This document shows, piece by piece, positions 3,001 through 22,465 of a stretch of DNA of 34,161 nucleotides. Below the pieces are notes generated by a model, which was not told the DNA's origin, did no database searches, and saw only the letters and a list, made by a program, of their open reading frames with translations. Source of the stretch: a virus; the IMG/VR virus record IMGVR_UViG_3300021356_000074, positions 1-34,161 of that record; one strand, given 5' to 3'. The position numbers and the translations under genes are program-made. Within the stretch, counting starts at the first letter, position 1. Each line of letters begins with the position of its first letter.

Positions 3001-6000
3001 ACAAAAAGCCTAATCCTTTTTCATAGATAAACGTCTCGTTAGTTTCTTTTGAGTTTTTATTTATTTTATTAAAGACGTCTTCTAAAGGTGCACCAGGCTT
3101 TAAACAGATAGTATCTGTAAAGTCATCTAGTAAGGCATCATCTAAATGCCAGCCTAAACCTTTTTTCTTTGCCAAGTCTTGATTGGTTATTTTAACATTT
3201 TTAACAATACTTCTAATCGCTTCATATAAGTCTTTAGATCCTTTGTCCATGTTTTTCTTTAATTTAGAAACTTGAAGTCTAGAGTCAATAGCTTTTTTAT
3301 GATCAGCAAAATAAGGAGAGTCTTCACCTACAACTTTAATTCCAAGTTTAGCCAAGTCAGCTTTATATTGCATAAACACTTTACAAATACTTGATCCAAC
3401 TCTCATTCTTATTGCATTCATTATTATTGGAGTAATTGCTGCTTTAAAGTCTTTGTCTTTATAAGGATTAAAGTTTGAAACGTAAGACTTGTTTTTATAG
3501 ATTTCATAAACGTTTTTTGCTATAACTACTGTTGAAGAAGCAATTAAAAGAACAGATAAAGCTGGTCCTGCCATTGCTAAAAACCCGACAAGAGGTCCAA
3601 CAAAAGGAGTTGCTGCAGTAGCACCTGTCATTCCTAATCCTACAGTTGCTAATCTAGCAAAACCAGAAACTTGAAATACTTTATTCATTGCTCCTGTAAA
3701 TGATATTTCATTTAAAGCTTGTTCGCTTAAAAGATTTTGATTTTTAATTTTATAAACGTTTAAATCTTTCTTTGCAAATAAAGAGCTTTTAACTTCGTTT
3801 AATAATTGATTTGTTTGATTAAACTTATTATAATTTTTTGTCATGCTTTCATTAATAAAGCTTGAGTCAACAAGTCTTTCTAAACCTGCCATAACATTTG
3901 GCAATATTTCCTTAGAAAATTCTTTTACATAACTTTGTGCATTGCTTTTATTAGTTATACCTTTAGAAGTCTTATATTCACCTGTCATCTTTTTAGAATC
4001 AAAAATTCCTGATGACATGTAGCGTTTAACATCTGCAGCTGTCAGATTAGCATGAGTGCTGCTTAATGCTGAAAATATAGAATCCATATCGATGTCTGAA
4101 TCTTTTATTTTTCCGCCTTCAACGAATCCTTTCATAATAGCTTCTAGATTAATTACATTCGACATTTTGTCTTTTTCACTACTAGCAATTTCTGTAACTA
4201 AATCTAAAATAGGATCATCACTCATACTATTAAAGTTACCAATTTTATGCAAAGACTGTAATTCTTCTCTTCTTTTTGTTTGAAGTTGATCGATTAAAGC
4301 TTCTTTAGAGTCAATAACTTCATAACCAGTAATATCAGAAATTGTAAAGTGATCCTTATTATTGGTTAACTTTGAATATATTATAGCTTTAAATCTATGT
4401 GTATTATAGTGATCTGATATTTGTTCGTCTGTAACAACAGTTGCTCTACCTTGAGATATATCGTTTTTAAAAGAAGTTATAGCATCTCTTAAAACTTTAA
4501 CTGTGTTTTGTTTTATATTGAGAGTACTCTTGTCTTTTTCTAAGCTGTTTACAAATTTTTCAAGATCTTTAGTGTTTTCTATTAGATCTTCTAAACTTTC
4601 TGTATCAACATCACCTCTAAGTTTTTTACCTCTTTGGAAAATACCTGTGACATATGTTTTATCTTCCATCTTTTCAAACACAGTGTTTATTTCATCTTGC
4701 CCGACTGTCATGTTTTTAAACATTTCAATCTTTATTGATGTCATATCAACACCTAAAAGCTGTGTTAATTTACTTACACTTTCTCCAGTAATTGCTTGTA
4801 AAAGATAAAGCCTAAATGCTTCGCCAATTTTTTCTTCAAATTCTTTTCTTTTCTTAGCTTTTCTTCTTTGCCAAGCTGCTGCGCCTATTGCAGCAATTAA
4901 TGCCACAGTTAAAACTCCTGGTACACCAAAAGTAAGACCTCCTGCAACTTTTAACATAGAAGTTGCAGCTGTTATGAGCAAACTTCCTTTTGATGCCAAA
5001 GTAGCACCTGCTGTTGTAAAGCCTAGCCAAGTTAAACCAAGCCCTAAACCACCAGTTAGTAATCCTGCTGCTGCAGTAAATGCTGCACCTATATTTAAAA
5101 GAACGTAATAAAGGTAAGGAGAAGTACCTAAAGCTGCATTAATTCCTGCTAATGTTCCTCCACTCGTAGCAGCTGCTGCTGCATAAGCTACGTAAGGTGC
5201 CTTTATCCATGCCCATGTAACAGTTCCAGCTGCAGCTAGTTTAGAAGATATGTACGACCAAACAGAGCCTAAAGAGCCTGTGAGCCATTCATTTATTTTA
5301 AATGCAACTTCAGAAAACAAGTCTGACATTGACTCAATACCTGTTAGCCAGTCTTTTAAAGCCCCTACAGCGTTTACAATAGTTTCTGGTGAAGGTAACA
5401 AGTTTGCAATTGCTTCACCAATACCTAAATTAGCACCTCCTGCACTATTAATTAAGTATGTTGAATAACCAATTGCAAGTAATCCAGTCCCTATTGCTAT
5501 CTTACCAAGATTTCCAAAAATAGAGCCTAAAACAGTTTTTGTTCCACTCCAAACTGATGATGCTGCCCTACCTAACATTGACTGAGTCTTAATTGATCCT
5601 CCCGCTATTTCGTTGAAATATTGTTCAATAATAGGAGATATTTCATCTGAAGAAGATTTGTCAAGCTTTTTCCCGTATCTATTTTCAAGATCTTTGATAA
5701 ATTTGTCTTGAATTTTATTATAAGCAGAATTTTTAGGTAAAAAGTCTTTATAATAAAATTTTAATGCAGATGGATTAATTTTTCCATTCGGCATCCTAAC
5801 AATCTTGTCAGCAAGCTTTAATGCACTAGGATCTTTGACACCTGCTTCTTTTATTAAGAGTTTTTCGTTTGATACATCTGGATGCAATAAATTAAAATTA
5901 TTAATTGTAAAAGATTCGTTTGTTTTGCTTTTATTACCAAGAAGATCTTTTGCTAAAGAATCAGTAACGCCAAGTTGCGATAAAGCCTGAACAATTCTTG

Positions 6001-8540: not shown

Positions 8541-9128
8541 ATGTATTATTTATTATTAGAAAATTATATTAAAGAATTGTTAAAAGAAAACAAAGAATAT
8601 ATTAAAAAAATTAACATATTTGATTTTGACGACACGTTATTTAAAACAACGAAGCAACCTGTTAACTGGACAAATAAAGATGGATTTTGGTATAACTCTG
8701 AAGAATCTGTGAATCCTTTATACTACAAAAAGAATATTGATACTTATTGGATAAATGATACGGTCAATAAAGTAAAAGAATCCATGTCAGACCCTGAATC
8801 TTTAACAGTTCTTTGTACAGCAAGAAGTAATCAGCCTGAAGTTATACATTCAACAAATAGTTTACTTAGAAAAAAAGGTCTCGTGTTTGATGATAATCGT
8901 CTTTACTACAAGACAAAAGATTATCAGACGTTAGGTAAAGAAGGTACACCTAAATACAAAGCAGACGTAGCTAAGTCTCTTTTAAACACGTATAGTTTTT
9001 GTAAAGAATTACATTTTTGGGAAGACAAGCAAGAAAATCTAGATGCTGTTCAACGAATGATTGATGATAATAACGCTATTAACCCTAACAGAAAAATATT
9101 ATTCGTTCCTCACGTTGTTCAAGTTTAA
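8541..9128 (+). CDS. HAD-superfamily phosphatase, Swiss-army-knife RNA-repair-like
   Basis: 195 aa from the ATG at 8541, preceded by GAGG; a longer open frame to 8463 would run into the divergent dCMP deaminase and lacks a ribosome site. After an amphipathic N-terminus containing Y-I-K-E (residues 9-12) comes HAD motif I, D28-F-D30-D-T, then the motif II-like LCTARS segment and a late HFWEDKQEN segment that fits the acidic motif III/IV. The spacing and the tryptophan/tyrosine-rich middle resemble the HAD domain of Swiss-army-knife RNA repair proteins (HAD_SAK_1), known in phages. The expected activity is a Mg-dependent phosphatase on a nucleic-acid or nucleotide phosphate; the substrate is unknown. 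The tail overlaps the converging gene by 30 nt. Its N-terminus resembles those of the other plus-strand genes, which may mean that it is packaged in the virion. Confidence 0.72.
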   Translation: MYYLLLENYIKELLKENKEYIKKINIFDFDDTLFKTTKQPVNWTNKDGFWYNSEESVNPLYYKKNIDTYWINDTVNKVKESMSDPESLTVLCTARSNQPEVIHSTNSLLRKKGLVFDDNRLYYKTKDYQTLGKEGTPKYKADVAKSLLNTYSFCKELHFWEDKQENLDAVQRMIDDNNAINPNRKILFVPHVVQV

Positions 9129-9971
9129 CTCTTTTTTCCAAGATAATATCTTTCTTTCTAGCTTTAAACTTTTATTTTCTTCACTAGCTTCTTCTAAAGT
9201 CATTCTGTTCCAAGGATAAAGATGACCTGAGTTTGATGAAGTTGGAATTGTTTTTAAACCTTTTACAGAATATAAGAATATATTACTGTCTTCAATTTCA
9301 ACATTTCTTTTAAATCTTAAAAAAGCAGGTGGTCTTCCTAATACAGCCATTTCTTCATCTTTGAATAAAAGTTCTTCACTACTCCAAGGAATTGCAAACT
9401 TAATTGCGTCTTCTTTATAGGGAGTAACATACGAGTTTTTCTTAAGTTCACTAAACCTTTTATTACTACCATGATAAAATATTCGTTTAGATAATTCAGG
9501 AATATAATACTGTGGTTTTACTTTAAAAGGTAATATTACTTGAATATCTTTTTCTTCCGCGTCATCTGCATACCAAAGTTTTAAGGCGTCTGCTAAGCCT
9601 TGAATTCCTTTTAAATGATACATTTTGCTGTTACAAGAAGAATATACAAATAAAGACTTTTTAATTTCTGAAGGTAGTAATTTAAAATAGTAAGTGTATT
9701 CTTCTCTTTCTAATATTTGATCAGGTCTTGAAGCATTTGTTGCATGATACATTGAAGCTCTTAGAAATGAAGTATTTTTTTCGTGGTAAGGAAATTGTAC
9801 TCTTATTTCTTTTTCTAATTCTTTTAAATATTCTCCTCTTTCAAAATTTTTGTATCTTTTAGGTCTCAATACTTTTTTAAACTTTTTGTCTGCACATACA
9901 AACCAGATGTCAGATGTTAAAAACTTTTCACCTAAATCTTTTATTTCTATAGGAACATTTATCTTTTTCAA
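9099..9971 (-). CDS. Unknown protein with YHGS segment, ADP-ribosyltransferase-like
   Basis: 290 aa. The start is the TTG at 9971, which overlaps the TGA stop of the thymidine kinase gene (TTGA), a typical coupled start; the next in-frame Met is residue 74. The first half is not recognised. The second half has R-I-F-Y-H-G-S (near residue 163), then a segment K-N-S-Y-V-T-P-Y-K-E-D-A-I-K-F-A. That order (YHGS, basic strand, T-P-x-x-x-x-A-x-x-F-A) recurs in small ADP-ribosyltransferase-fold or related enzymes, but I cannot see a convincing catalytic Glu, so the call is tentative. It is translated with the thymidine kinase and so probably expressed early. It may be a host-modifying protein or simply a nucleotide-binding protein. 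Confidence 0.45.
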   Translation of the reverse strand: MKKINVPIEIKDLGEKFLTSDIWFVCADKKFKKVLRPKRYKNFERGEYLKELEKEIRVQFPYHEKNTSFLRASMYHATNASRPDQILEREEYTYYFKLLPSEIKKSLFVYSSCNSKMYHLKGIQGLADALKLWYADDAEEKDIQVILPFKVKPQYYIPELSKRIFYHGSNKRFSELKKNSYVTPYKEDAIKFAIPWSSEELLFKDEEMAVLGRPPAFLRFKRNVEIEDSNIFLYSVKGLKTIPTSSNSGHLYPWNRMTLEEASEENKSLKLERKILSWKKELNLNNVRNE

Positions 9972-10540
9972 TTATTATTCTCTTTAAAAGTAGTATAGTG
10001 TTTCGCACATCTTGGCTCATACATCCCTTTTGAACCAACTCTTTCTTCTGCTGTTGCATTATTAATATCAAACATCGCTTCTGTAAAATACGCATCTTGA
10101 TCACAATCAGTACAAACTGCAGGGCATATTTCTATTTTTGTTGCCCAAGGCATCATATTTTTTATGTTTTCAAAAGGTATTTCGTTAGCGTCTAATTGAA
10201 TTGATGACACAATTATATTAATACCTTTACGGTATAAAGAAATTAAAACAGAATCAATATCCTGTATCATAAATGCCTCATCTACAGCCACGATAGTATT
10301 AGAATTAAGCATGTCTTCTGTAATATAACACAAAATTTCTTCAGCGTGATCAATACAAAAAGCAGGATATGATGCCCCCGTATGTGTGCTAATAGCTTCT
10401 TTAGTATAACGATTGTCTCTTTTGGCTTTAAAAGCTACTACTTTTCTACCTTTATATAAAGACCTATCAATATCAGACATTAGCTTTGTTGTTTTTGATC
10501 CAAACATAGGACCTGTATAAATTGTAAATTGTGGATTCAC
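9968..10540 (-). CDS. tdk: Thymidine kinase (TK1 type)
   Basis: 190 aa, normal for bacterial and phage type II thymidine kinases. It phosphorylates thymidine to dTMP with ATP (salvage). Seen directly: P-loop G10-P-M-F-G-S-K-T-T18; the Walker B/catalytic segment V-D-E88-A-F, where Glu88 is the expected general base; and a C-terminal zinc/lasso region with C143-x-x-C146 and C178-A-K-H181, with another Cys at 139. The second zinc pair is Cys plus His rather than Cys-Cys, a mild variation. The ATG at 10540 follows the kinase-TS fusion gene by 9 nt, with AGGAG just upstream. The two genes and the downstream YHGS gene form one minus-strand unit. Confidence 0.93.
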   Translation of the reverse strand: MNPQFTIYTGPMFGSKTTKLMSDIDRSLYKGRKVVAFKAKRDNRYTKEAISTHTGASYPAFCIDHAEEILCYITEDMLNSNTIVAVDEAFMIQDIDSVLISLYRKGINIIVSSIQLDANEIPFENIKNMMPWATKIEICPAVCTDCDQDAYFTEAMFDINNATAEERVGSKGMYEPRCAKHYTTFKENNN

Positions 10541-10549
10541 TTAAAACTC

Positions 10550-11440
10550 CTAAGGAACTATATGTGCTGATCTTATATTTACTGTTAAATTAATTTCACA
10601 ACTCTCTGGTAAAGACATTTCATCAGCAATTTTTACACTAAGTATCTTTAAAAATTCAAAGTCTGCCCATAAAGTTGTTGTAACATTAGATGATCTTAAT
10701 GTTACTGATACGTCTAAAGTGTTCTGCCTCCACAATGCATGAATCATTGATATACAACTATTATCTGTATAAATAAATCTTCTACTATCATGCTTTTGTG
10801 GTTTATTATATTGATTTAAGCCTGTAAATTCTTTAAAAATAGTATTAGTAATTTCATGTTCTATTCTTTCGTAATACTCTTTTTCTTGAGGAAAATTTAA
10901 AACTGAATAGTCTAAATTTCTTCTATTTACTTTTTCTTTACACTGTACATCAACAAGTTCATTTCTTCCGCTACTAAAAACTAAAGACTTTATTAATTCT
11001 TGGCCAGGCATATCGTTTAAAGAATCAATAAAATTAAGTGTTTTTCTAACGTTTTTTTCTAAGTCTTCTTCTTCTAAAACTAAAACATTTGGAAAAGAAC
11101 CAAAACCCATTTTAGCAATATTTCTAAAGTAATTACGTACTTCTAAAATAGATTCGTTATCTTGAAAATCATCGCCTCTAATCTTAAGTCTTTTCAAGAT
11201 GCATTTTTCAGAAGGTAAAAGAACTACGTATAAAGTGTCAAGTCTTTTAAGATCATCTAAAATCTTATCAAACCAAATAGAAGAATCTTCCCTGTTATAC
11301 AACTTTGAATAAACAAACATAGACATACAACTTCTGTCTTGTATGTTGTATTTAAAGTTTGTTTCTTTATGTAGCTTACTATATAAAGTAGTTTTACCAC
11401 TACAATCAGGACCTTCGATATTAATATTAAAAAATCTCAT
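10550..11440 (-). CDS. P-loop dNMP kinase fused to ThyA/dCMP-hydroxymethylase-like domain
   Basis: 296 aa with two parts. Residues 1-140 are a thymidylate/deoxynucleoside monophosphate kinase-like fold with P-loop G10-P-D-C-S-G-K-T-T18 and a later Arg-rich lid (near 84-90). Residues 145-296 match the core of the ThyA/pyrimidine hydroxymethylase family by eye: S-R220-R221 (phosphate-binding Arg pair), Cys229 as nucleophile, then R249-S-S-N exactly 20 residues on (E. coli ThyA C146 to R166 is also 20), then Asp260 11 residues after R249, where ThyA has Asn177, and a terminal S-A-H293-I-V like ThyA T-H207-L-Y. Asp at the Asn177 position is the change known to turn recognition from dUMP to dCMP (T4 dCMP hydroxymethylase has Asp there). 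The protein ends right after the His, lacking ThyA's C-terminal closing segment, and the loop before Cys is about 11 residues shorter. ATG with AAGG 6 nt upstream. Confidence 0.72.
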   Translation of the reverse strand: MRFFNINIEGPDCSGKTTLYSKLHKETNFKYNIQDRSCMSMFVYSKLYNREDSSIWFDKILDDLKRLDTLYVVLLPSEKCILKRLKIRGDDFQDNESILEVRNYFRNIAKMGFGSFPNVLVLEEEDLEKNVRKTLNFIDSLNDMPGQELIKSLVFSSGRNELVDVQCKEKVNRRNLDYSVLNFPQEKEYYERIEHEITNTIFKEFTGLNQYNKPQKHDSRRFIYTDNSCISMIHALWRQNTLDVSVTLRSSNVTTTLWADFEFLKILSVKIADEMSLPESCEINLTVNIRSAHIVP

Positions 11441-11460
11441 TTAAAACCTTTTTTAATTTT

Positions 11461-11489
11461 AGTATAATACTTAATATATAAATTTACAA
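11461..11489 (-). promoter_or_regulatory. Promoter-like motif before kinase-TS fusion
   Basis: On the minus strand TTGTAAA (11489-11483), a 16-nt spacer and TATACT (11466-11461) lie 20 nt before the start codon. The same arrangement, GTGTAAA-N16/17-TATAAT, precedes the replicase, both ThyX genes and a small gene at 24444. The same DNA contains a plus-strand TATAAT (11463-11468), so divergent promoters may overlap here. Confidence 0.55.
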
Positions 11490-11512
11490 AAATAAAATTT
11501 TAAGGATGACAC

Positions 11513-12142
11513 ATGAAGATCTCAGAAGCACAACTTAGAAAAATAATACAAGATGTAATAAAAGAAAGCTCTTTTGGTGGATCAAGAGCGTCAGGTTACA
11601 TAGCACAAGCTGCTGCTGTAAATATGGCCATAGCACTTTCAATAGTCGTAGCTAATGGTATAATAAATCATTACAATCAGTTACAAGAAATTACTAAAGC
11701 AACTCAATTATTTCAATCAACTAGCAAAGTTAGCAAAAATAATTTTATATTTGAACTTGAAGGTGACAATTTAAAATTAGAAAATACAGATACAGGAGAA
11801 GAAAGATTATTAGATCTAAGTAAGCTTACATTAGAAGGAAGAGAAGAATTAGCTCTTAAGATTTTAGAATCAATATACGGCAATATAAATAAAGCTGAAC
11901 GTGCTTTAAACAAATACACAATGCACAGTTTTGGTGGATCAGAAGCCAAATTAATAAGAAGTATATTAGGATTAGACGATTTATCTAAATATTCTTCTAG
12001 CTCAACGTCAATGCCTAATTCTTCTTATGATTCTTCTTCTAACATGAGTGTACCGTATACAACATCAGGCGATAATGTTGGTGAGTCTTTAAAAGAAAGA
12101 AAACTTCGTAGAATTATTAAAAATATTATAAGAAATGGTTAA
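11513..12142 (+). CDS. Unknown protein with capsid-targeting-like N-terminus and C-terminal copy
   Basis: 209 aa; ATG at 11513 with AAGGA six bases upstream. No family recognised. The first 18 residues form a basic amphipathic helix with L-R-K-I-I and V-I-K-E (residues 15-18), the pattern expected before an (I/L)-x-E cleavage. Residues about 25-50 are Ala/Ile/Val-rich and could form a membrane-associated helix. A middle charged region is followed by a Ser-rich linker (about 163-190). The last 16 residues (K-E-R-K-L-R-R-I-I-K...) repeat the N-terminal type of motif and closely resemble the start of the next gene. It is likely a small virion or internal head protein; this is inferred from the tag and from the neighbours. 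Confidence 0.7.
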   Translation: MKISEAQLRKIIQDVIKESSFGGSRASGYIAQAAAVNMAIALSIVVANGIINHYNQLQEITKATQLFQSTSKVSKNNFIFELEGDNLKLENTDTGEERLLDLSKLTLEGREELALKILESIYGNINKAERALNKYTMHSFGGSEAKLIRSILGLDDLSKYSSSSTSMPNSSYDSSSNMSVPYTTSGDNVGESLKERKLRRIIKNIIRNG

Positions 12143-12211
12143 GAGACAATTAGCATGAGAATTACAGAAAGACGTTTGAGACAACTCATCAGAAATGTTA
12201 TTAAAGAATCA
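12085..12211 (+). repeat. Duplicated basic-helix module across a gene junction
   Basis: The C-terminus of the 209-aa gene (about 12091-12139) and the N-terminus of the next gene (12155-12211) both encode E-R-x-L-R-x-x-I-x-N-x-I-type helices, about 70 bp apart. The DNA copies are diverged but co-linear. A third copy is at the 209-aa gene's own N-terminus (11513-11566). This suggests duplication or shuffling of the tag between neighbouring genes. Confidence 0.6.
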
Positions 12212-12505
12212 CAAATAAACGAAATGCATGATGATAATAATGCATATGCTTCGCTTGTTGGTGCACAAGCACATGCTGGATATTCACCTAAAGTTACATA
12301 TGATGAGCAAACACATCGAAGACTAATGGGCGAATTCTGGGATGCAGTAAGTGAAAAAGGAAGTATTTATGCAATGTATCCTGATCTTGAGAAAAACAAT
12401 CCAGAAGGATCTGCAGCTGATTATGAGCATGAAGCATGGCAAAATTGGTTGAGTGATACAAAAAGTAAACAATATTATGAAGTATATAAAGATTATACAT
12501 GTTAA
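12155..12505 (+). CDS. Small unknown protein with capsid-targeting-like N-terminus
   Basis: 116 aa; ATG 12 nt after the previous stop, so probably co-transcribed with it. The ribosome site is weak (AGAGA). Residues 1-18 are a basic amphipathic helix, E-R-R-L-R-Q-L-I ending V-I-K-E (15-18), nearly the same as the N-terminus of the preceding protein. The rest is acidic, rich in Tyr, Asp, Glu and Trp, with no recognised domain and no membrane segment. The gene ends exactly one base before the stop codon of the converging replicase gene. If the tag is cleaved after E18 as in T4 internal proteins, the mature product would be about 98 aa and acidic, like a small internal head protein. Confidence 0.7.
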   Translation: MRITERRLRQLIRNVIKESQINEMHDDNNAYASLVGAQAHAGYSPKVTYDEQTHRRLMGEFWDAVSEKGSIYAMYPDLEKNNPEGSAADYEHEAWQNWLSDTKSKQYYEVYKDYTC

Positions 12506-15500
12506 CTAATCAAAAGCATTAATCTTTTTAAGTTTAGCGAGGCTTGATGACATACCCCATCCAGCATCATTCTTTACATCAGCTAGCCACGTACTAAACT
12601 CAATATCACCTTCCATGTCACCCCAAACTCGTAACCATCCACTACGATTGTCTGAATCAACACATTTCCATCTCATAAACGCCTTGCCGTTCTTTGTCGT
12701 TTTCTTAATCACTTCAGTCACAGTAAACCAGCCAATTCCTCTTTCACCAGAAGGTATATCAAAAACACTACTGATTTGCTTCTCGTTTAACTTCTTTAGC
12801 AATTTAGGTGGAAATAGGAGATCATCACTTGCATCGTTACTGAGTTCAAAATAATTCTTTATTTTTTCACCACGAGACCAATCAGACACAACCCGGTATT
12901 TAGACATTAAATCTTCAACAATTGGGACGATTTCCTCATCATTTTTTTGTGCTCTTTTTATCGCAGTTTTTGTCATTCCAAACCTACCTTTCTTGAGTAA
13001 AGCATAGTTATCAAGAACCAAATCATGCATTTGCTTGTGATTATCTAACTCATTGTTCTGGAACTCCTGGAGAGATTTAAATGCTTCCATTTTTGTTAGC
13101 GAAGAAAAAGCTGTTTTATTTAGCTTCGAATGCTTCCATACTCCTTCTGCATCATAAAATAGATCTTCTAAATTTTTGTATGGCCTATTTGCAAATACTT
13201 CTTCAACTGCTTTGTCACCTACTCCTTTGAGAGATGTTAAAGGTGGAACAAATGCTTGTAAAGCTTGAGAAAATTCCCACTCAGTTCCAGAGTGATTAAT
13301 ATCAATAGCAGCAATTTCATAACCAAATGATTTAATTTCTGAAATTGCTTTAGACATACCTTTAGGATTACCATTCTCAGACTGAAGAATTGTTGCTAAC
13401 CACTCAGTTTCATAATGTGTATGTAACCAAGCTGCGTAATAAGAGTCAATAGCATATGCAACTGCATGAGATTTATTAAAACCGTAAACACTAAAGAATT
13501 CTATTTCTGCCCATAACTTAGACGATACAGATTCAGGAACGTCATTTAACTCTTTCGCACCTTTAATAAACTTATCACGTGCTATAGCCTTTTCAGAACC
13601 TTTTGAATGTAATGTATCTAATGACTTCTTAACCAATGTCTTGCGAAGCTTATCACTTTCACCAGGGTCAAAACCTGCTAGCTTTTGTGCCAATAACATA
13701 AACTGTTCTTGGAATGTTACAAATCCAAACGTTGGCCCTAAGATTTCCTTAATAATGGGATGATCATACTTAATTTGATCTGCGTTTTGCTTTGCTTTAA
13801 CATATTTCTTATGCACATTTGCCTTAAGCGGTCCAGGACGATAAATGGCTGTAAGCGCCGCCAACTCTTCAATATTTTCAGGTTGTGCTTCTAAAGAGAA
13901 CTGTCTAGCACCTTGATTAGTAAATTGGAAAACACCAGCAAAATGTCCGTCATGATAAACATGTTTCCAAACAGCAGGATCGTTTTGCTCATGAAATCTA
14001 CAATTAAGATGTTTATCGAAGAAATCTTTTGCTTCTAAGAACGTCGGATTAGGATTACCTTGTTTCTTAAGAATACGATAAATACAATTTTCTACATCTT
14101 TTAGAAGTGTTAATCCTAAAAAGTCAAACTTAAGAAAGCCGTTATCTTCTAGATTACGGAAGTTCATACCTTCTGTCCAAGGTGTTTGTAATTCACCGCG
14201 AACACCAACGATAGGCATAGACTGTGCAAGTTCATCAGCGTCAGCTATAATAACACCACCCGCATGTCTACCGATTGCTCTGTTTTGCATAAACAGTGAA
14301 GACACATGTTTTTCTACCTCAGGATATGTTTCCATGAACTCGCGGTATTCTGGTGAATGCTGCATACAATCTTCATGTTTAAGAACAAATACAGACTTTT
14401 CTTGATTTTCATCTCTAGCCTGTTGCATAACTTGTTCTTGCAAAGGACCTGTCATCTTGTTTACTTCATCAAACGGAACATCGTAAAACTTTGCAATATC
14501 CTTAACAAGAGACTTAAGCTTAAGGGTATTAAAATTAGAAACAGGAATAACAGCATCATCACCATATAGTTCTCTCGCAGCATTAATTAGTTCATCACGA
14601 TCGCCAGCATCTGTATCAATATCCGGCCAAGAAACACGATGGCGTCCTAAGAAGCGTGACCAAAGTAAGTTATAAGGAATAGGATCAAGTTGTGTAATAC
14701 CAAGTAAGTAGTTAACCAAAGAACCACCACCGCTACCACGAGCAGGTCCTAACAAAGTTTTCTGTTCAGCCTTTTTAAAGATCTCATACATTGTAATAAA
14801 GTATGCTTCGTGCCCAAGGTACTTAATATCTGATAATTCTTCTTTAGCACGATCAACATATTCTTGATTTGTATGTAAATCATGAGCCATTAAAGCATCT
14901 TTAACAAGCGAAGACAAATGCTGAAATGGTGTTTTATTTGGCACACTAATTGTTGGAAGTTTAGCACTTGTATCTACCCAAGTATCTTCGAAGTCATTCC
15001 ACACAATATCATGTGTTCTGTTAATAGCATCACGAACTAGTTCTTCATTTCCTTTGTAGAAATCGTATGTAGGGTATGCATCAAGGAATTCATCCCACAT
15101 TTGAGAAGCATTCTTAGGGTATAGCTCACATTTAAGATCTTCAAATTCTGGCAGAGTTAATCCGTCTTTTTTACCTAACCATCCGAGCTTTTTATATAGC
15201 TCACGTGCTTGCCACTTATCAGCTGTTGGGTAGTGAGAGTCTGCTGTACAGATTAGAGGAATACCCGTTAGCTTATGATGTTCAATAAGATAATCATTGA
15301 CTGTGTGTTGCTTTTCAAGCTTGTTAAATTGAAGTTCTAGCTTAAAGTTGTTTTCGCCTACGCAAGAAACAAATCTATCAGTAAGGTTTGATAGTTCTGC
15401 TTGAATTTGATCTCGACTATGTCCATGAACCTCTCCGCGAAGAATACGATTAGAGTAGATACCTCCAAGACAAGCTGTAGAAATATGTAAACCTTCACCA

Positions 15501-16081
15501 TGTTCTTGAAGCATTTGAAAGTCAATACGAGGATATCGATAGAATCCGTGCTTATACGACTTCTTGACCAAAGTAAATAGATTCTTAAGACCTTGCTGAT
15601 TACGAGCTGTAACTACAAGGTGATAACGACGTTTCCACTCGTCTTTAAGAACATCAATCTTTTTAGTTTCATCTTCATCCTCAACAACAAGACCTCCAGC
15701 CTCATCGTCAGCATCGATATCAATCTTTTCTTTTGCCTTCTTTTCAGCAGCAGCTGCAGTCTTGGCGTCAAGAATTGCTTGCTTATGTGCTGCATAATCT
15801 GCAGACCATTGTTGTAGTGATGGGACGAAATAGAATTCAACACCATAGATTTGTCTAAAGTTACGACCAGCCTTTTGCATTTTAACAGCATGAGAATGAG
15901 CATGTGCAAGACCATTACCGTTTCCGTGGTCTGTTAACGCCCAAGCGTCCATGCCTTGTGACTCAGATAAAACAAAGTCAATATGATCTGCAGGATAGCC
16001 TAATCCATCAAAAGTACTAAATGTGCTGTGAGCATGAAGCCCGACAAATCTATCTGGAGGAATAATATTGTTTATTGACAA
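12506..16081 (-). CDS. dnaE: DNA polymerase III alpha subunit (C-family replicase)
   Basis: 1191 aa, the usual length for DnaE. It is the likely phage replicase. The PHP domain comes first with H16-A-H18, T50-D-H52, E82 and T279-A-D281-S-H283, so the metal-binding residues are largely kept and proofreading by PHP is possible. The palm has G-P-A-R-G-S-G-G-G-S (445-454), P486-D-I-D489-T-D491 and K651-F-D653-F-L-G-L, matching the three catalytic Asp positions of C-family enzymes; R-H-A-G-G-V, Y-R-P-G-P-L and G-F-N-K-S-H also fit. A charged insertion sits at about residues 100-148 in the PHP domain. The start is TTG at 16081 with AAGG seven bases upstream; the PHP fold begins at residue 12, so an earlier start is not needed. 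A promoter-like GTGTAAA-N17-TATAAT lies upstream. Confidence 0.95.
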   Translation of the reverse strand: MSINNIIPPDRFVGLHAHSTFSTFDGLGYPADHIDFVLSESQGMDAWALTDHGNGNGLAHAHSHAVKMQKAGRNFRQIYGVEFYFVPSLQQWSADYAAHKQAILDAKTAAAAEKKAKEKIDIDADDEAGGLVVEDEDETKKIDVLKDEWKRRYHLVVTARNQQGLKNLFTLVKKSYKHGFYRYPRIDFQMLQEHGEGLHISTACLGGIYSNRILRGEVHGHSRDQIQAELSNLTDRFVSCVGENNFKLELQFNKLEKQHTVNDYLIEHHKLTGIPLICTADSHYPTADKWQARELYKKLGWLGKKDGLTLPEFEDLKCELYPKNASQMWDEFLDAYPTYDFYKGNEELVRDAINRTHDIVWNDFEDTWVDTSAKLPTISVPNKTPFQHLSSLVKDALMAHDLHTNQEYVDRAKEELSDIKYLGHEAYFITMYEIFKKAEQKTLLGPARGSGGGSLVNYLLGITQLDPIPYNLLWSRFLGRHRVSWPDIDTDAGDRDELINAARELYGDDAVIPVSNFNTLKLKSLVKDIAKFYDVPFDEVNKMTGPLQEQVMQQARDENQEKSVFVLKHEDCMQHSPEYREFMETYPEVEKHVSSLFMQNRAIGRHAGGVIIADADELAQSMPIVGVRGELQTPWTEGMNFRNLEDNGFLKFDFLGLTLLKDVENCIYRILKKQGNPNPTFLEAKDFFDKHLNCRFHEQNDPAVWKHVYHDGHFAGVFQFTNQGARQFSLEAQPENIEELAALTAIYRPGPLKANVHKKYVKAKQNADQIKYDHPIIKEILGPTFGFVTFQEQFMLLAQKLAGFDPGESDKLRKTLVKKSLDTLHSKGSEKAIARDKFIKGAKELNDVPESVSSKLWAEIEFFSVYGFNKSHAVAYAIDSYYAAWLHTHYETEWLATILQSENGNPKGMSKAISEIKSFGYEIAAIDINHSGTEWEFSQALQAFVPPLTSLKGVGDKAVEEVFANRPYKNLEDLFYDAEGVWKHSKLNKTAFSSLTKMEAFKSLQEFQNNELDNHKQMHDLVLDNYALLKKGRFGMTKTAIKRAQKNDEEIVPIVEDLMSKYRVVSDWSRGEKIKNYFELSNDASDDLLFPPKLLKKLNEKQISSVFDIPSGERGIGWFTVTEVIKKTTKNGKAFMRWKCVDSDNRSGWLRVWGDMEGDIEFSTWLADVKNDAGWGMSSSLAKLKKINAFD

Positions 16082-16106
16082 TTTATAACCTTTCTGTTTT
16101 TTATTT

Positions 16107-16136
16107 ATTATATTAAATTAATATTTATATTTACAC
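16107..16136 (-). promoter_or_regulatory. Promoter-like motif before replicase
   Basis: On the minus strand GTGTAAA (16136-16130), a 17-nt spacer and a perfect TATAAT (16112-16107) lie 25 nt before the TTG start. The predicted leader is about 19 nt and carries AAAGG. This is the clearest member of the GTGTAAA-N16/17-TATAAT series in the window. Confidence 0.65.
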
Positions 16137-16163
16137 ATAAAAGATATAATAAGGTTTAAAATG
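16137..16163 (+). promoter_or_regulatory. Shared 5-prime leader, copy 1
   Basis: ATAAAAGATA at 16137-16146 is followed by AAGGTTTAAA and the ATG at 16161. The next gene has the same two blocks with the same spacing. The AAGGTTT part is the ribosome site; ATAAAAGATA may be a -10-like or late-promoter element. The minus-strand kinase-TS and replicase genes have related AAGGTT-type leaders but not ATAAAAGATA. Confidence 0.5.
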
Positions 16164-18881
16164 AAATATAGCTTAAAAGAAAGCTTTCTTATTAAAGAAA
16201 ACAAAGGAATAGAGTTAGTAGGAAACAAACTATCTGTTTACCATTTAACAGGATCAGAAAAATTCAAAGAATATTCTTCTTACGTTACAGATCTAGAATA
16301 CTCAAAACCTACAAAACAACGTCGTGTTAAAGATCAAACTAGAAATATCATTAATAAGATTACTTATGATAAAGCAAGAAGACTTTCTAAACCTGACAAG
16401 AGTGAAATTGAATTTCAAGGAGTCATAGAATTATTAGCAGATCCGTATACACTAGGCACTGGTTTTACTCCAGGAAGAGGAGCTATGTATGGGCCTGGAT
16501 TATATACTTGTTATGATTTTAATCCGGCAATAGTAGGTTTATATGGTGATATATGCTTTAAATTTGAAGTTGATATAAGCAATTACATTATATTTTTTGA
16601 GGATCTTGCAAAAAAAATACACGGAGACAAATGGAAAATAGAGGATCAAGTAGAAAAGCTATTTGACAAAAAATTCTCATCATTAGCAGACAATGAATTG
16701 CTTTCAAAAACCAAAGAAGATATAATTCAGTTTTGTACTGAAATTACTCCTAAAATTGCAGGCACTAGTTACTTAAGTGATAATTTAACTTCAGGCTCAG
16801 CTTATAGTTTTATTAAACATATTCAAGGCAAATATACTAGTAAATACTTAACTTCAATTATTGATGGTATTATTTTTAGAGGTGAAAATGATGGTCCAGT
16901 CTGTGTTATCTACAATCCGCAGAGAAAAGCTAAAGTTGTAGAACTAGGTAGAGTTATTGGTAAAGAAGTAGAGTGGCATTCAAATGTTGCTAGCTTTTTT
17001 CCAAGTCAAAAATTAGCAATGGACATAGATTTTTCAGAATTAAATTCGATTGCTCAAGAAAGTGACGTTGATGAAGAATCTTTTAAACAAAGTCAACTTG
17101 ACAAAATAGAAGATCTTATGCCTACACTTTATTGGTGTAACGAGATAAACAAAGTTGCAAATTCTCCTGAGTTAACATACGAAACTGTACAGAAAGTTTA
17201 TGATTTAGTTGTTAATGATAATTTAAAAATTGAAAGTATGTTTATTAATCACATTTTATTTTCAAATATAAATTACAAAGTGCAAAATGCTATCGGAACT
17301 TCAATGAATCCAGGTGCTGCTTTAAAAGTAGACACAACTAATATAGAAAATATAACACTAGAGTGCTTAGACTTAATTGTAGACCTTTGTTTTAAACTAA
17401 ACTATTTTTCTGATAGTGATGTTAATTCATTGTTTCCAAAGTTTTTAGATGTATTAACTTCTCCAATAAACAATCAAAGAGTTACAAAAAAAGATTTTGA
17501 AAAGTTTGTTGATATTTACATAGAAAATTCAGATAAAATTAGTTATGACATGCTAGTTTTTGGAAATATAAAATATAGCAATGCCTCTTCTGCAAACAAG
17601 ATGTTATTTTCTAGAAAGTCGCTAGAAAAGTTAAATAGTCTTGATAATAGTCGTTTAGAAATAAATAGAGGTTTTCATGATATTTCTAACTTAGCAAGGT
17701 ACCGAAGTCGTTTAGATAATCTTTCTGGACAAGACATACTTAATATTTTAAAAAAAATGCTTTCTTATTATTTCCCGTCGAAGAACAAAGAATACAAGGA
17801 AGTTGTTTGTAGATTGCCTTGGGAAAGAGAATATTTTACTGAACTCCCTGAAATTCAACAATTCTTGTCAGAAGAATTAGATACAATGTCGTCAGCAGTA
17901 GTTGCTGGTTCTGCAAATAATTTATTTTTAGGCTTGTTTGCTTTGTTTAATCCAAAAATTATAAAGGTTGTAGATATAGAACTTTTAAATAAAGTACTTG
18001 ATGTAATGCTTGAAGATTATGAAAACTTAGGTTCCAAAGCTAAAGAAAATATTCGTACTAAATTAATAAACATTAGTGATCCAAGCATTAAAAGACAAAT
18101 TACAAATCAAAAATATTATCAGATTGTTGACCAAAGACTTGAAGATGCTAACAATTGGGAGCCGTTTATTGATGAGTTAAAATTATCAAATGATCCTGCT
18201 GAAACTCGTAGTATTTTTAGAAGTAATAAAAAAGTAAACAAAAGAGACAAAGACTTTGCAAAAGAGTTTATCTTAGGTATAATTGCTGGTGATATTCCTC
18301 CAGATATTGATAGACTTACCTCGTATTTACTTTATATTACTTCAAACGATGTAAAATTTGATTTTCAAACTCATCTCGATTTATTAAAAGCTTGTGAACC
18401 TTTTGTTGCTATTAAGCCTAACAATAAAAAGCACTTTATTGATTTAATTAGATTTGTTTTAAAATTTATAAAAGGTTCTGAAGAATATCTTGCTCTTATA
18501 GATCTGCTAAAAACAATGCCTGAAGCTTATATAAATGGTATTGAGTTAGGACGTGTATCGTATCAAGAAGGATCAAACATACTATATGAGGAGATTGCAA
18601 ATGATCCTAGTAGAATATCTAGATTCTTTAACGGAATGAGTCAAAAGCAAGTTCTTAAAATTGTTAAAAACTTACAGTCAAGTGTTTCATATGTAGTTAA
18701 TTATGCAAATGAAGCATATTTGCCTATTAGTGGTATTTTAAGAATACTTAACTATATTAAAGTAGAGTTTGGTAAAGGTTCTGTTCTTAAAACAATTATT
18801 GATATTGAGCAATCAATTCAACAAAATCAAGCAGCAAATGAATCTATTTTAAAGCACTATATTAATCTTGTGCTTTCTTGA
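16161..18881 (+). CDS. Large protein: capsid-targeting-like tag, ADP-ribosyltransferase-like domain, helical tail
   Basis: 906 aa. N-terminal helix with L-I-K-E at residues 10-13. Residues about 22-265 look like an ADP-ribosyltransferase fold of the phage polyvalent-protein type: V26-Y-H28-L-T (the H of an H-Y-E core), P104-G-R-G-A-M-Y-G-P-G-L-Y115-T (NAD-cleft Gly/Tyr segment), Y-G-D-I-C-F-K-F-E-V strand, and I-I-D-G-I-I-F-R (233-240) followed by G-P-V-C-V-I-Y-N-P (245-253), the usual closing strand. The catalytic Glu is not certain; E242 is a candidate. The remaining 640 residues are helical, Leu/Ile/Asn-rich and probably an alpha-solenoid. T4 Alt is the known parallel: a packaged ADP-ribosyltransferase with a cleaved N-terminal peptide. 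It shares leader and architecture with the next gene. The fold call is by eye; the activity is inference. Confidence 0.6.
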   Translation: MKYSLKESFLIKENKGIELVGNKLSVYHLTGSEKFKEYSSYVTDLEYSKPTKQRRVKDQTRNIINKITYDKARRLSKPDKSEIEFQGVIELLADPYTLGTGFTPGRGAMYGPGLYTCYDFNPAIVGLYGDICFKFEVDISNYIIFFEDLAKKIHGDKWKIEDQVEKLFDKKFSSLADNELLSKTKEDIIQFCTEITPKIAGTSYLSDNLTSGSAYSFIKHIQGKYTSKYLTSIIDGIIFRGENDGPVCVIYNPQRKAKVVELGRVIGKEVEWHSNVASFFPSQKLAMDIDFSELNSIAQESDVDEESFKQSQLDKIEDLMPTLYWCNEINKVANSPELTYETVQKVYDLVVNDNLKIESMFINHILFSNINYKVQNAIGTSMNPGAALKVDTTNIENITLECLDLIVDLCFKLNYFSDSDVNSLFPKFLDVLTSPINNQRVTKKDFEKFVDIYIENSDKISYDMLVFGNIKYSNASSANKMLFSRKSLEKLNSLDNSRLEINRGFHDISNLARYRSRLDNLSGQDILNILKKMLSYYFPSKNKEYKEVVCRLPWEREYFTELPEIQQFLSEELDTMSSAVVAGSANNLFLGLFALFNPKIIKVVDIELLNKVLDVMLEDYENLGSKAKENIRTKLINISDPSIKRQITNQKYYQIVDQRLEDANNWEPFIDELKLSNDPAETRSIFRSNKKVNKRDKDFAKEFILGIIAGDIPPDIDRLTSYLLYITSNDVKFDFQTHLDLLKACEPFVAIKPNNKKHFIDLIRFVLKFIKGSEEYLALIDLLKTMPEAYINGIELGRVSYQEGSNILYEEIANDPSRISRFFNGMSQKQVLKIVKNLQSSVSYVVNYANEAYLPISGILRILNYIKVEFGKGSVLKTIIDIEQSIQQNQAANESILKHYINLVLS

Positions 18882-18899
18882 TAATAATATAATTTTTTT

Positions 18900-18926
18900 A
18901 TAAAAGATACAAAAAGGTTTAAAATG
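18900..18926 (+). promoter_or_regulatory. Shared 5-prime leader, copy 2
   Basis: ATAAAAGATA at 18900-18909 is followed by AAGGTTTAAA and the ATG at 18924, with the same distances as the leader at 16137. The gap to the previous stop is 42 nt, too small for unrelated sequence to keep this pattern by chance with ease, although AT-richness raises the background. Confidence 0.5.
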
Positions 18927-21032
18927 AAAATTAATTTACTTAAAATTTATATTAAAGAAGCATTAGGAAGAGAATTGTTATATTCTCCTGATAGGCTGGC
19001 TAATGCAGGTAATAAGAGTAGTGAATTCGAAGTATTGCAGAGAGAGCTTACTAATGTTAAGCAAATTTTAAAGCTACCACGAGATGTTGGTCTAGGAAAC
19101 TCTGAAGAAGATCAAAAAAAATATATTGAATTTGTTATTAAAGATCTTGCTAGAAATGTCGGTCCTAATACTTTTATAAGATTTGAAGAGCAATGGGACA
19201 CTAATGTTATTCCGACACTTGCTGTAAGTCCTATAGTTAAATGGGAAACGCCGCATGGTATATATGGTTATCCTTTAAAAGAAAAAAATCTAGAAAGATT
19301 AATCCTTAAATCAAAGCCAACAAACGCTGCATTTGCAACTCAATTTGGATTTTTTCATGTATACAAAATTGATTCTGCTAAGTCGGTTACTACGTATATA
19401 CAAGACTTTGTAAACAAGGCAATTAATACAAAATATAATTCTAAAGAAAATGTTATTAAAGATATTGAAGAATGCATTCGATTATCTCCTAATTTATTAA
19501 AAGATAATATAAAAAAATTTGAAATAGCAGATGAAAAAATAATTAAATCATTTGAAGACGCAATAACTGCACCTGTCCCTGTATTAGATGTTTTTTTAAC
19601 AAAGATATTTTCCTTTATGGATTATCATATTCAGTTAAAAAGAACAACTCAGCCTATTATAGCAGAGTATAAATCTGAAATCGCAGAAGCAATTTTTGAT
19701 ATCTATACAAAACTAAATCCAAATAAATCATCTTCAAAATCACGTATTGAGTTTTATTACTTTGGGCTTGTTAAATTTGTAATAGGAGAAATTGCTGATA
19801 TAATATCAGAAAAAAATTCAACAAAACGGGGTCAATATTATTCCTTGCTTTTAAAAGCTGCAGGTATAGATGCAATTATCGATAAAGGTACACAAATTAT
19901 ACATCATAACGAACCTGATCAATCAGTTTCAACAGACTTTTCAGGAAGAAATATAAAAGTAATTGGAACTTATAAAAATGTTTTTACTAATCTTACACAA
20001 GGTGAAAGAGAAAGCTTGTATGAATTTCTTTTGGAATATATTTCAGATCCAAATGAAAATATTAAGTGGGACTGGAATCAAAAAGAATCTAAATCTGCAG
20101 AAAACGTTAACTTTGAGTCACTATCATTAAACGAGTATAAACATTTAAGAAAAAAAATATTAATAAATCCAGAGTTTAGTGATTATTTTAGTGCTTGTAT
20201 TGCGTATTCTTATGATGGATTAAAAATATTAAAATACGAAATAGATCATCCTGATTCGTTTTTTATAAATGAAGATGAAATCATAGTAGAATGCGCAATT
20301 GATGCTGTAGCTGAATTAAATGATCCTCCAGCGTGGGCACTTGTAAGTATTGTTAATTTAGTTGACAATAAAAAATATGCGTTAGATGTTTTTTGTTTAG
20401 ATAAAAATATGCCACGTGAATACGTTAAAGATAAATTTGATGAAGTTATAAAGAATAAAGAGGATATGTCTTATATTTCAAGACTGTTAAAAAATCCTAA
20501 AATAAATTCAGACGACATTCAGAAAATAATAGACTTACCAGATGATGCATTTAAAAATCAAGTTTTAAATTATGTCTGGACAAACAAAAATATAACAAAA
20601 GAACAATTAGAAACTATTTATAAACAATCTAAAGAAGAAAACTTATCAATATTAAGAAATGTTAATTATCCTATTTCTTCTTTAATGGATAAATTCTTTT
20701 TCTTAATAGATGAAGAAGAAATAGGTGAAGCTTTTGATCTGTTAAAGTATATTGTTAAAAACAACAATATAACAAAAAGTGAGCTACAAGAATTAGTTGA
20801 TTTTGTTGTTGAAAGATATGGAGATAAAGTTACTTTAAACTTTGAAAAAGGTAACAAATTAATTTACTTAACACTATGCAAGTATTTTGATCAAAAAATG
20901 GCAGATCAAATAGGTATTAACAAGCAACAGATTCTAGAACGAGCTAAAGATTTATATATTTATGATGATTGGGAAGATAAAGGTGGAGTTAAATTCTTAA
21001 AAGATAACTCTCAAATTAACAATCTTAAGTAA
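18924..21032 (+). CDS. Large protein, paralogue-like: tag, ADP-ribosyltransferase-like fold, helical repeats
   Basis: 702 aa. N-terminal helix with Y-I-K-E-A (residues 9-13), very close to the T4 internal-protein pattern with cleavage before Ala. Residues about 85-350 resemble a fold common in marine phage proteins: T109-P-H-G-I-Y-G-Y-P-L (109-118), then a long helical insert, then G314-I-D-A-I-I-D (314-320) and I-I-H-H-N-E-P-D-Q-S-V (325-335), ending R-N-I-K-V-I. The late block matches the closing strands of ADP-ribosyltransferase-like polyvalent domains, and the early block parallels the G-P-G-L-Y segment of the preceding gene. The C-terminal 300 residues have repeated helices (segments around N-P-K-I-N-S and W-T-N-K-N-I-T) like leucine-rich-variant or HEAT repeats. 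Whether it is enzymatically active is unknown. It overlaps the converging gene by 8 nt. Confidence 0.55.
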   Translation: MKINLLKIYIKEALGRELLYSPDRLANAGNKSSEFEVLQRELTNVKQILKLPRDVGLGNSEEDQKKYIEFVIKDLARNVGPNTFIRFEEQWDTNVIPTLAVSPIVKWETPHGIYGYPLKEKNLERLILKSKPTNAAFATQFGFFHVYKIDSAKSVTTYIQDFVNKAINTKYNSKENVIKDIEECIRLSPNLLKDNIKKFEIADEKIIKSFEDAITAPVPVLDVFLTKIFSFMDYHIQLKRTTQPIIAEYKSEIAEAIFDIYTKLNPNKSSSKSRIEFYYFGLVKFVIGEIADIISEKNSTKRGQYYSLLLKAAGIDAIIDKGTQIIHHNEPDQSVSTDFSGRNIKVIGTYKNVFTNLTQGERESLYEFLLEYISDPNENIKWDWNQKESKSAENVNFESLSLNEYKHLRKKILINPEFSDYFSACIAYSYDGLKILKYEIDHPDSFFINEDEIIVECAIDAVAELNDPPAWALVSIVNLVDNKKYALDVFCLDKNMPREYVKDKFDEVIKNKEDMSYISRLLKNPKINSDDIQKIIDLPDDAFKNQVLNYVWTNKNITKEQLETIYKQSKEENLSILRNVNYPISSLMDKFFFLIDEEEIGEAFDLLKYIVKNNNITKSELQELVDFVVERYGDKVTLNFEKGNKLIYLTLCKYFDQKMADQIGINKQQILERAKDLYIYDDWEDKGGVKFLKDNSQINNLK

Positions 21033-21261
21033 TTACTTTTTTAATCCAAAGGCCATCTTGATTTTCTAGATCAATTGTTTCTCTAGAAGTTCCATTTAAA
21101 TATATAACTAAACCTTTACAGAAATAATGATCTTGTATTAGTTCAACAACTAAACAGTTTTCTTTTATTGCGACGCCATGATAAAATATATCAATAATGT
21201 CACCTTCTTTTAAATGAGAAGAGTATCTAATTTCTTTTAAATCGTATTTATTCGTTGACAT
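21025..21261 (-). CDS. Small beta-rich (SH3-like?) protein
   Basis: 78 aa from the ATG at 21261, which overlaps the stop of the VWA gene by 14 nt. The open frame runs back to 21396, but that part is only the VWA gene read in another frame. The pattern is K-E-G-D-I-I-D-I-F-Y-H-G, then C-L-V-V-E-L-I, then short strands and a terminal K-K-V. This G-D-x-I ... hydrophobic strand ... turn ... strand order resembles small SH3-like barrels, and the proteins at 24229, 25332 and 25525 look similar. No function can be given. Confidence 0.55.
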   Translation of the reverse strand: MSTNKYDLKEIRYSSHLKEGDIIDIFYHGVAIKENCLVVELIQDHYFCKGLVIYLNGTSRETIDLENQDGLWIKKVIT

Positions 21262-22465
21262 ATAATTTTGTTTTTCCCCACCGAATAGTAATTTCAGCAT
21301 TGTTGTTAAGCATATTAGTGCATATATTAAAAGGTTCTTCATCGTAAAACTTAATGATTTTATAAAGGTTGTCATAAACATAATCAACACCTTCATCTAA
21401 AGGTTGTGTATCGTTAAAAACATTAACATCACCGTCAGCAATTATTGGACCAATTCTACACATGATTTCTTCTATAATTGCGTTAAATGCTGCAGCAACT
21501 TGATTTGCATTTACAACAAAAGAAAATTCGTTAGGTGATGTATTTAAAGTATTCCCGCTAATTGACTGTAAAGCGCTAGTATTAGCGTTATCTACTCCTA
21601 GCGTATATACTGTAATACATGGATTCGCTTCTGTAGAGTAAATGCAATTATTATCGTTTAAATTAAAAATATTATTTTGTACAAATGTCTGCGAAGGACC
21701 TGATCCTTCGTTTGGCGAACCGTCTGAAATCAGTAAGATATAGTATACTTCATAATTTGTTGATTGAATTTGTAATATTGCTTCTTGTAAAGGTGACACA
21801 AAATTTGTACCTCCTCCCGGGCTGTTATTGTTAACAATAGAAAGCACTGTTTGTTTATGCTGTGGACTTTTACCAATATCTGATTTAACTATCACATCGC
21901 TGTTATAAAGAATAACAGAATAACTTAAATTAAAATCTGAGTTGATAAATTGAGCAACTGTATTTTTTAATTGAACAATTCTATTTCCTCTCATAGACCC
22001 GCTATAATCTAACAACATAATTACAGCTGCATCAACAAGATCAACATCGTGAGTTTCTTCTGGAATAGTTATCTCTACAGACTTTGTAACTTGTCCTCTT
22101 CCTGGGTTATAAGTTGAAGATATACCAAACTTTCTTTCGCATATACCGTTTTCGTCGCATTCTAAGCCTAGATCTTCACAAGTAAAGCTAGGTTGTGAAG
22201 AGTTTAAGCTTTCTGCACATTCATTTAAGTATTCGGCAGAGCATAGAAAGTCCGGGTCATTATATTTTATTATACTTTGACCTGCACTTATACTACACGT
22301 GTCTAAAACTTGTTTTTCTTGTATAACATTTAAAGATGTTCTTCCAAATTGAATAACGCCAAAAGAAGCTAAAGCAAGAACAGCTGTTATTAATACTACA
22401 ACTAAAGCTGCGAAGCCTTTTTTATTTTTGTGCTGCCTTTTTATATATAAGGTGTCTTGTGCCAT
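21248..22465 (-). CDS. Membrane-anchored VWA-domain protein, TadG-like
   Basis: 405 aa. Residues 17-40 are a single hydrophobic helix after a basic start (KNKKGF), as in TadE/TadG pilus-type proteins. A Cys-rich spacer follows (C57, C75, C83, C96, C103, C109). The VWA domain starts near 145 with a complete metal-ion site: D153-Y-S155-G-S157, T220 in G-G-G-T, and D248 in I-S-D-G-S. C-terminal Cys are also present (about 272-380), suggesting disulfides outside the cytoplasm. A phage gene of this kind could bind an extracellular partner or be a virion surface or tail adhesion protein; a host-derived Tad-like gene is the other reading. The start overlaps the nuclease gene by 44 nt and lacks a good ribosome site, so the exact start is less sure. 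Confidence 0.8.
   Translation of the reverse strand: MAQDTLYIKRQHKNKKGFAALVVVLITAVLALASFGVIQFGRTSLNVIQEKQVLDTCSISAGQSIIKYNDPDFLCSAEYLNECAESLNSSQPSFTCEDLGLECDENGICERKFGISSTYNPGRGQVTKSVEITIPEETHDVDLVDAAVIMLLDYSGSMRGNRIVQLKNTVAQFINSDFNLSYSVILYNSDVIVKSDIGKSPQHKQTVLSIVNNNSPGGGTNFVSPLQEAILQIQSTNYEVYYILLISDGSPNEGSGPSQTFVQNNIFNLNDNNCIYSTEANPCITVYTLGVDNANTSALQSISGNTLNTSPNEFSFVVNANQVAAAFNAIIEEIMCRIGPIIADGDVNVFNDTQPLDEGVDYVYDNLYKIIKFYDEEPFNICTNMLNNNAEITIRWGKTKLYVNE

Follow-up and report, generated by a model that had tools for sequence, protein, structure and literature searches.

In terms of loading proteins into the phage head, the internal proteins of phage T4 carry a capsid-targeting sequence (CTS) of 10-19 residues that gp21 cuts after L/I-x-E, and T4 Alt is also cut at its C-terminus (PMC9026906, PMC3012670, PMC12373910). 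The leader is the sole part common to IPI-III, which inhibit distinct type IV restriction enzymes (PMC12373910). In phage P1, the first 30 residues of DarB suffice as an N-terminal packaging signal (PMC9024508). Here we describe a 34-kb virus record fragment (IMG/VR record IMGVR_UViG_3300021356_000074, positions 1 to 34,161; hereafter the window, meaning the whole 34,161-nucleotide stretch), in which all five plus-strand genes open with short N-terminal tags ending in I-K-E. Together with the equivalent tags of related phages, we consider these shared starts likely to be cleavable prohead-targeting peptides that work like the T4 CTS.

Translation of the window agrees with the initial annotation, which had placed the I-K-E at the five starts so that it ends at residues 12, 18, 18, 13, and 12, and the bodies of the five proteins proved mutually unrelated by BLASTP, as it had also stated. 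I-K-E lies within the first 20 residues in 5/5 of these genes and in 0/26 of the other called window genes; against a background of 0.87% of internal 20-residue windows, five occurrences among 31 N-termini correspond to p = 7e-6. The tags, all on the plus strand, are MYYLLLENYIKE (8541-8576, E12; class 2, LLLENYIK type) on an HAD phosphatase-like protein of 195 aa (gene 8541-9128), where it stands before the catalytic DFDDT motif (Pfam HAD_SAK_1, E = 1e-14); MKISEAQLRKIIQDVIKE (11513-11566, E18) on a 209-aa orphan (gene 11513-12142); MRITERRLRQLIRNVIKE (12155-12208, E18) on a 116-aa orphan (gene 12155-12505); MKYSLKESFLIKE (16161-16199, E13) on a protein of 906 aa (gene 16161-18881); and MKINLLKIYIKE↓A (18924-18959, E12; the arrow marks the putative cut) on a protein of 702 aa (gene 18924-21032). 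The second and third belong to the class termed class 1 below, with scores of 39.7 and 47.0, and both served as seeds for its matrix.

The DnaE-type polymerase gene of the window (12506-16081), used as query, retrieved 79 related loci on contigs of up to 284 kb (relatives are labeled G for large contigs and L for loci). Many genes in these loci start M[KR][IL][TS]xxxL[RK]x[IL][IV]xxx[IL]xE (class 1). A position-specific matrix was built from 27 seed tags, all from loci adjoining dnaE, and applied at a score cut-off of 10 to eight large contigs (133-284 kb, 2058 genes; genes were called by a simple script, and counts are approximate). N-terminal matches per contig were 4/279, 5/256, 1/98, 13/295, 36/251, 8/268, 25/359, and 24/252, where internal positions predict 0.02-0.36; pooled, 116/2058 genes are tagged versus ~1 expected. 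G005, G007, and G010 supplied no seeds and yet gave 1, 13, and 25 matches (expected 0.2 for G007 and 0.36 for G010), so their matches are independent of the training set. On random viral contigs, the class-1 tag was found on 0/621 genes.

The tripeptide by itself is less telling. In the eight relatives, the first 20 residues contain I-K-E four times as often as internal stretches do (70/2058 vs 214/24528, p = 2e-18), and a bare [IL]-x-E occurs at 29-36% of N-termini vs 18-23% internally, a mild enrichment that makes the argument depend on the whole tag rather than on the tripeptide. At least 120 IMG/VR matches to a degenerate DNA pattern of the tag start indicate that the tag is common. A tblastn search of cultured phages with the 20-aa consensus gave no match, the query being too short to inform; the class-1 profile detected no tags in the 50-kb head half of Rhodothermus phage RM378; and none of the tag peptide strings tried was found in the literature searched.

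What the tags precede is remarkably diverse. Once the first 25 residues are removed, the bodies of the 116 tagged proteins sort into 111 families, of which 109 have a single member, and 101/116 bodies are without a homologue in the other seven genomes. Pfam recognized 5 families in 111 tagged proteins vs 70 in 111 length-matched untagged proteins, the latter including RNR, ThyX, RecA, and helicase; an equal frequency of the motif at the start of cytoplasmic enzymes, which the initial annotation had named as a result that would speak against packaging, was thus not observed, the core enzymes being without the tag. PHROGs matched one deoxyribonucleotidase and a few unknowns among the tagged proteins.

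The tag behaves as a module. Between unrelated proteins, BLASTP matches confined to the tag attain E values of 1e-5 to 1e-4; the tag of gene 12155-12505 alone matches those of unrelated proteins, and the LLLENYIK-type tag of gene 8541-9128 recurs on unrelated proteins in G001 and G002. Hybrid tags such as MKVTRKQLSLIIENYLKE↓A bridge class 1 and the LLLENYIK class. Conversely, homologous bodies carry swapped tags that still end (I/L/V)-x-E: the YIKE↓A of the 702-aa protein is replaced in homologues by YIQE↓A, IKE↓S, or a different tag, LLTEWKQNFVNE↓A, ending FVNE↓A, and the domain that opens the 906-aa protein is preceded in relatives by FLIKE, NIIKE, DWILNE, or KLINE. The tag of the 906-aa protein is kept in two full-length homologues (65-66% identity); no cultured relatives of this protein were found, and no further family for the 702-aa protein was found among the viral contigs searched. 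In G001 (203734-205361, minus strand), an identical 14-residue tag, MILENYIKEVLLFE, opens two adjacent unrelated genes, which suggests that tags spread by recombination or duplication.

The link to a T4-type head comes from the large relatives, of which 15/17 encode an S77 prohead protease and 15/17 a gp23-type capsid protein; no S77 match was found in G003, G004, and G033, which are possibly incomplete contigs. The closest named relatives of the clade capsid protein belong to T4-superfamily phages, e.g., RM378 and cyanophages. Among contigs of at least 130 kb picked by the tag alone, 15/16 encode S77; the corresponding 7/21 for tag-bearing contigs of 40-125 kb is uninformative since these are fragments, and the 2/10 random contigs with S77 are too short to serve as a size-matched control. 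Only four of the 439 proteins conserved in at least five other genomes bear the tag; they belong to a single family, which is encoded just downstream of S77 and near the gp23-type capsid gene. The tag of this conserved head-module protein is MAKVSRSMLKSIVKECLVELLAEG, or MKLTRAKLKDLIKECIVEVLAEG in G009. No cultured relatives of this tagged core protein were found; in the cultured Microcystis phage Mel-JY01, the nearest isolate encountered, the open reading frame directly after the protease carries IVQEVVREVIAE↓N, and the capsid site reads LISE↓A. The clade capsid proteins have a conserved (V/L)L(R/K)E↓(S/T/A/Q) at the position of T4 gp23 FLTE↓A, and the clade protease starts RLITEW where T4 gp21 has QLLIETW. 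A ClpP-like window gene (33273-33878), which matches PHROG "head maturation protease" families, was considered as the prohead protease and dropped because G001 has a ClpP-like gene at the matching position (65460-66065) plus a separate S77.

Probable tags are also found at C-termini. The 209-aa orphan bears a tag at both ends. The second, a probable mirror tag, ESLKERKLRRIIKNIIRNG (12083-12139, plus strand), lies one residue from the C-terminus, has a class-1 score of 23.7, and carries its L-K-E ahead of the helix. Such copies at protein ends have the form [LIV]xE-(A/S)xxLRxIIRxxIR, in which the putative cut site precedes the helix; further examples are found in L037 (5924-7042), G008 (10672-12225), G014 (161602-162465), L020, L022, L060, and L072. 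Matches occur at 18/2864 C-termini vs 31/20381 internal windows (p = 8e-7), and (L/I/V)-x-E precedes 16/40 C-terminal helices vs 12/96 internal ones (p = 8e-4). From their sequence, the C-terminal copies are probably mirror tags.

The minus-strand starts that the initial annotation had likened to the five, at 33237, 29074, and 8026, read as it described. The first is a class-2 tag, MSILLEQYILETIYQQKLE (33181-33237), on a protein of 301 aa (gene 32332-33237), and in G001 the gene at the matching position (64539-65402), of similar size, has a similar tag, MSEVLIENYIKEFFYFED. The second, MKNERQITKIFLNSILEQA (29018-29074; gene 28583-29074, 163 aa), is a possible tag and a weak one, its class-1 score of 7.0 lying below the cut-off. 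The third, KLSELLFEEK (7988-8017), opens a giant protein of at least 2675 aa (gene 2-8026) that runs off the window and whose homologues begin MNIKLADLLFEED and MSLKLKDALFET. Internal copies follow at residues 262-271 (KLSNLLFEKK, 7214-7243, minus strand) and 1815-1824 (KLFDLLFENK, 2555-2584, minus strand), making three copies of KL(S/F)xLLFE(E/K/N)K, alongside hydrophobic stretches; one possibility is that the prohead protease processes the giant protein as an internal polyprotein.

In the mechanism that we propose, the product of each cargo gene begins with an amphipathic helix of ~12-22 residues ending (I/L)-x-E. This helix resembles the N-terminus of the conserved core protein (MAKVSRSMLKSIVKECLVE), and it is probably by mimicry of that N-terminus that it would dock in the prohead core. 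The S77 protease, a gp21 homologue present in the relatives as is the site, would cut after the Glu during head maturation, freeing the mature protein inside the head. The freed proteins would then be ejected with the DNA and act early on the host, candidates being a possible Alt-like ADP-ribosyltransferase (gene 16161-18881) and an HAD phosphatase of nucleic-acid-repair type (gene 8541-9128). The initial annotation's proposal of a T4-type capsid-targeting tag is thus upheld, with cleavage probable, by S77 and gp23, the tag of the head-module protein, the near-universal (I/L)-x-E, and the absence of the tag from core enzymes. In L215 (3063-6143) and L237 (1930-5199), ~7-8 consecutive small tagged genes lie between tail-tube and baseplate-type genes, a late gene context that we count toward the same interpretation.

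The further suggestion of the initial annotation, a strand-specific regulon, is not supported: tags occur on both strands in the window (minus-strand genes 32332-33237 and 2-8026) and in relatives, and no common late promoter was found. Upstream of tagged genes, T4-late-like sites (TATAAATA) show no enrichment, either in the window or in relatives. A near-identical block, (T/C)ATAAAAGATANAANAAGGTTTAAA, at 16136-16160 and 18899-18923 (plus strand), stands directly before the ATG of the two largest plus-strand genes, and among the tagged window genes this upstream block is common only to those two.

Several observations weigh against capsid targeting. No head genes were recognized within the window, so that S77 and gp23 for this phage rest on relatives, and we infer docking, packaging, cutting, injection, and cargo functions in these uncultured phages from sequence. 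The site count that favors it, with a hydrophobic-x-E ending within residues 9-24 in 115/116 class-1 tags vs a shuffled mean of 71, is partly circular, since the tags used to train the matrix ended in E. The site is not fixed in position, its E falling mostly at 13-15, 18-19, or 21-23, nor is P1' restricted (E 33, A 28, S 24, N 13). Homologues of the HAD phosphatase-like protein keep LL(E/K)[NSY]Y(I/V)(K/Y) and lose the E of I-K-E (YIKT, YIKS, YIKY, YVYN), so L-L-E7 or a later L-K-E may be the real site; the conserved part is not I-K-E itself everywhere. I-K-E or an equivalent (IKE, IQE, VNE) is kept among homologues of the 906-aa and 702-aa proteins. Finally, the class-1 profile found 0/67 called genes in a 50-kb T4 stretch with internal-protein and head genes, and no alignment can be made between the class-1 tag and the T4 leader MKTYQEFIAE, the two being alike only in site and helix pattern; the tag is therefore described as working like a CTS and is not filed in the same leader family.

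An AT-rich genome encodes much Ile, Lys, and Glu, and the shared starts could in principle be coincidental; the mild enrichment of the bare [IL]-x-E at N-termini accords with this. The structured motif, in contrast, is ~100-fold enriched at N-termini, which together with the BLASTP matches between tags of unrelated proteins refutes chance and leaves it exceedingly improbable. The helices might instead remain uncut and send the proteins to another destination, e.g., the host membrane or a replication compartment of the phage, with (I/L)-x-E merely part of the helix. Short, basic, amphipathic helices are compatible with membrane association, and in G007 and G010 the helix continues beyond the first I-x-E (IIKEEKAKLLAE). 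Such targeting is nevertheless improbable, given that the sole broadly conserved tagged protein adjoins the prohead protease, that S77 is present in 15/16 of the large contigs picked by tag, and that in the C-terminal copies L-x-E is found at the other side of the helix, a position from which cleavage would release the cargo all the same.

The tagged proteins might also enter the prohead not as effectors to be injected but as scaffold or core fillers, to be lost by destruction or expulsion before the DNA is packaged. The conserved head-module protein may be such a filler, and in T4, gp22, gp67, and gp68 undergo cleavage into fragments (PMC9958956). Conservation would be expected of essential scaffolds, however, whereas for 101/116 tagged bodies the other seven genomes contain no homologue, and some bodies are enzyme-like (HAD phosphatase, deoxyribonucleotidase, possible ADP-ribosyltransferase); we regard this fate as distinctly unlikely.

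Read as capsid targeting, the system is like T4 IPI-IPIII and Alt in its short N-terminal leader, L/I-x-E site, S77 protease, and gp23-type head, in mature bodies that share the leader alone, and in possible ADP-ribosyltransferase cargo. It is unlike T4 in its different, longer consensus (KITxxxLRxIIxxxIxE), in having up to 36 class-1-tagged genes per genome vs three internal proteins plus Alt, in a tag common to a conserved head-module protein, in its probable C-terminal copies, and in cargo genes that are scattered or in tail operons. P1 DarB is similar in that an N-terminal signal sends a protein into the head for delivery, whereas the P1 head and protease are discussed as HK97-related rather than S77/T4-type (PMC9024508). 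In the giant phages SPN3US and phiKZ (PMC5694885, PMC7411985), many different head-packed ejection proteins are likewise matured by a gp21-like protease that removes propeptides; the protease there is diverged, and the cleavage motif is different.

The N-terminal domain of the 906-aa protein (16161-17069, plus strand) is possibly PARP-like, and its relatives in L319-L322 bear several different tags. Motif alignments show conserved GxGxxYGxGLYTxY and DGhhFRGxxDG-type motifs. The domain models are of low confidence (pLDDT 54 and 63), and their comparison with PARP, MbcT, the anti-CRISPR 6kyf, and other ART-type chains gave Z of 2-4, not significant alone. Foldseek returned nothing significant for an ADP-ribosyltransferase fold (E > 1), and no match was found among PDB sequences. 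By motif and weak fold ranks, the domain is possibly ADP-ribosyltransferase-like.

Other genes of the window and its relatives merit mention. An intein-like insertion appears to interrupt dnaE of G001 (46232-51081), L003, L015, L028, L029, and L078, where matches span ~4.7-5.0 kb vs 3.6 kb; the window copy is uninterrupted. Two ThyX-like (flavin-dependent thymidylate synthase) genes, recognized by eye, lie close together on the minus strand (27545-28516 and 30749-31453). A VWA-domain protein (21248-22465, minus strand; Pfam VWA) has a TadG-like N-terminal membrane segment, which is unusual for a phage.

The scale of the tag class, its distinct sequence, the giant protein carrying copies inside it, and the probable mirror tags at C-termini are new here. 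Large environmental phages consist mostly of genes without a known role; should the tag serve as a packaging signal, many orphan genes would be located inside the head, their timing would probably be delivery with the DNA, and they would become candidate anti-defense or host-takeover proteins. Tentatively, and at somewhat less than even confidence, we suggest that a widespread group of large uncultured T4-like phages uses a two-ended tag code, with N-terminal, mirror C-terminal, and internal polyprotein copies, to load dozens of diverse and fast-changing effectors per virion. For protein delivery with other phages, the tags might be used as a handle for loading, and were the two-ended code true, the injected arsenal would be readable directly from the phage genome.

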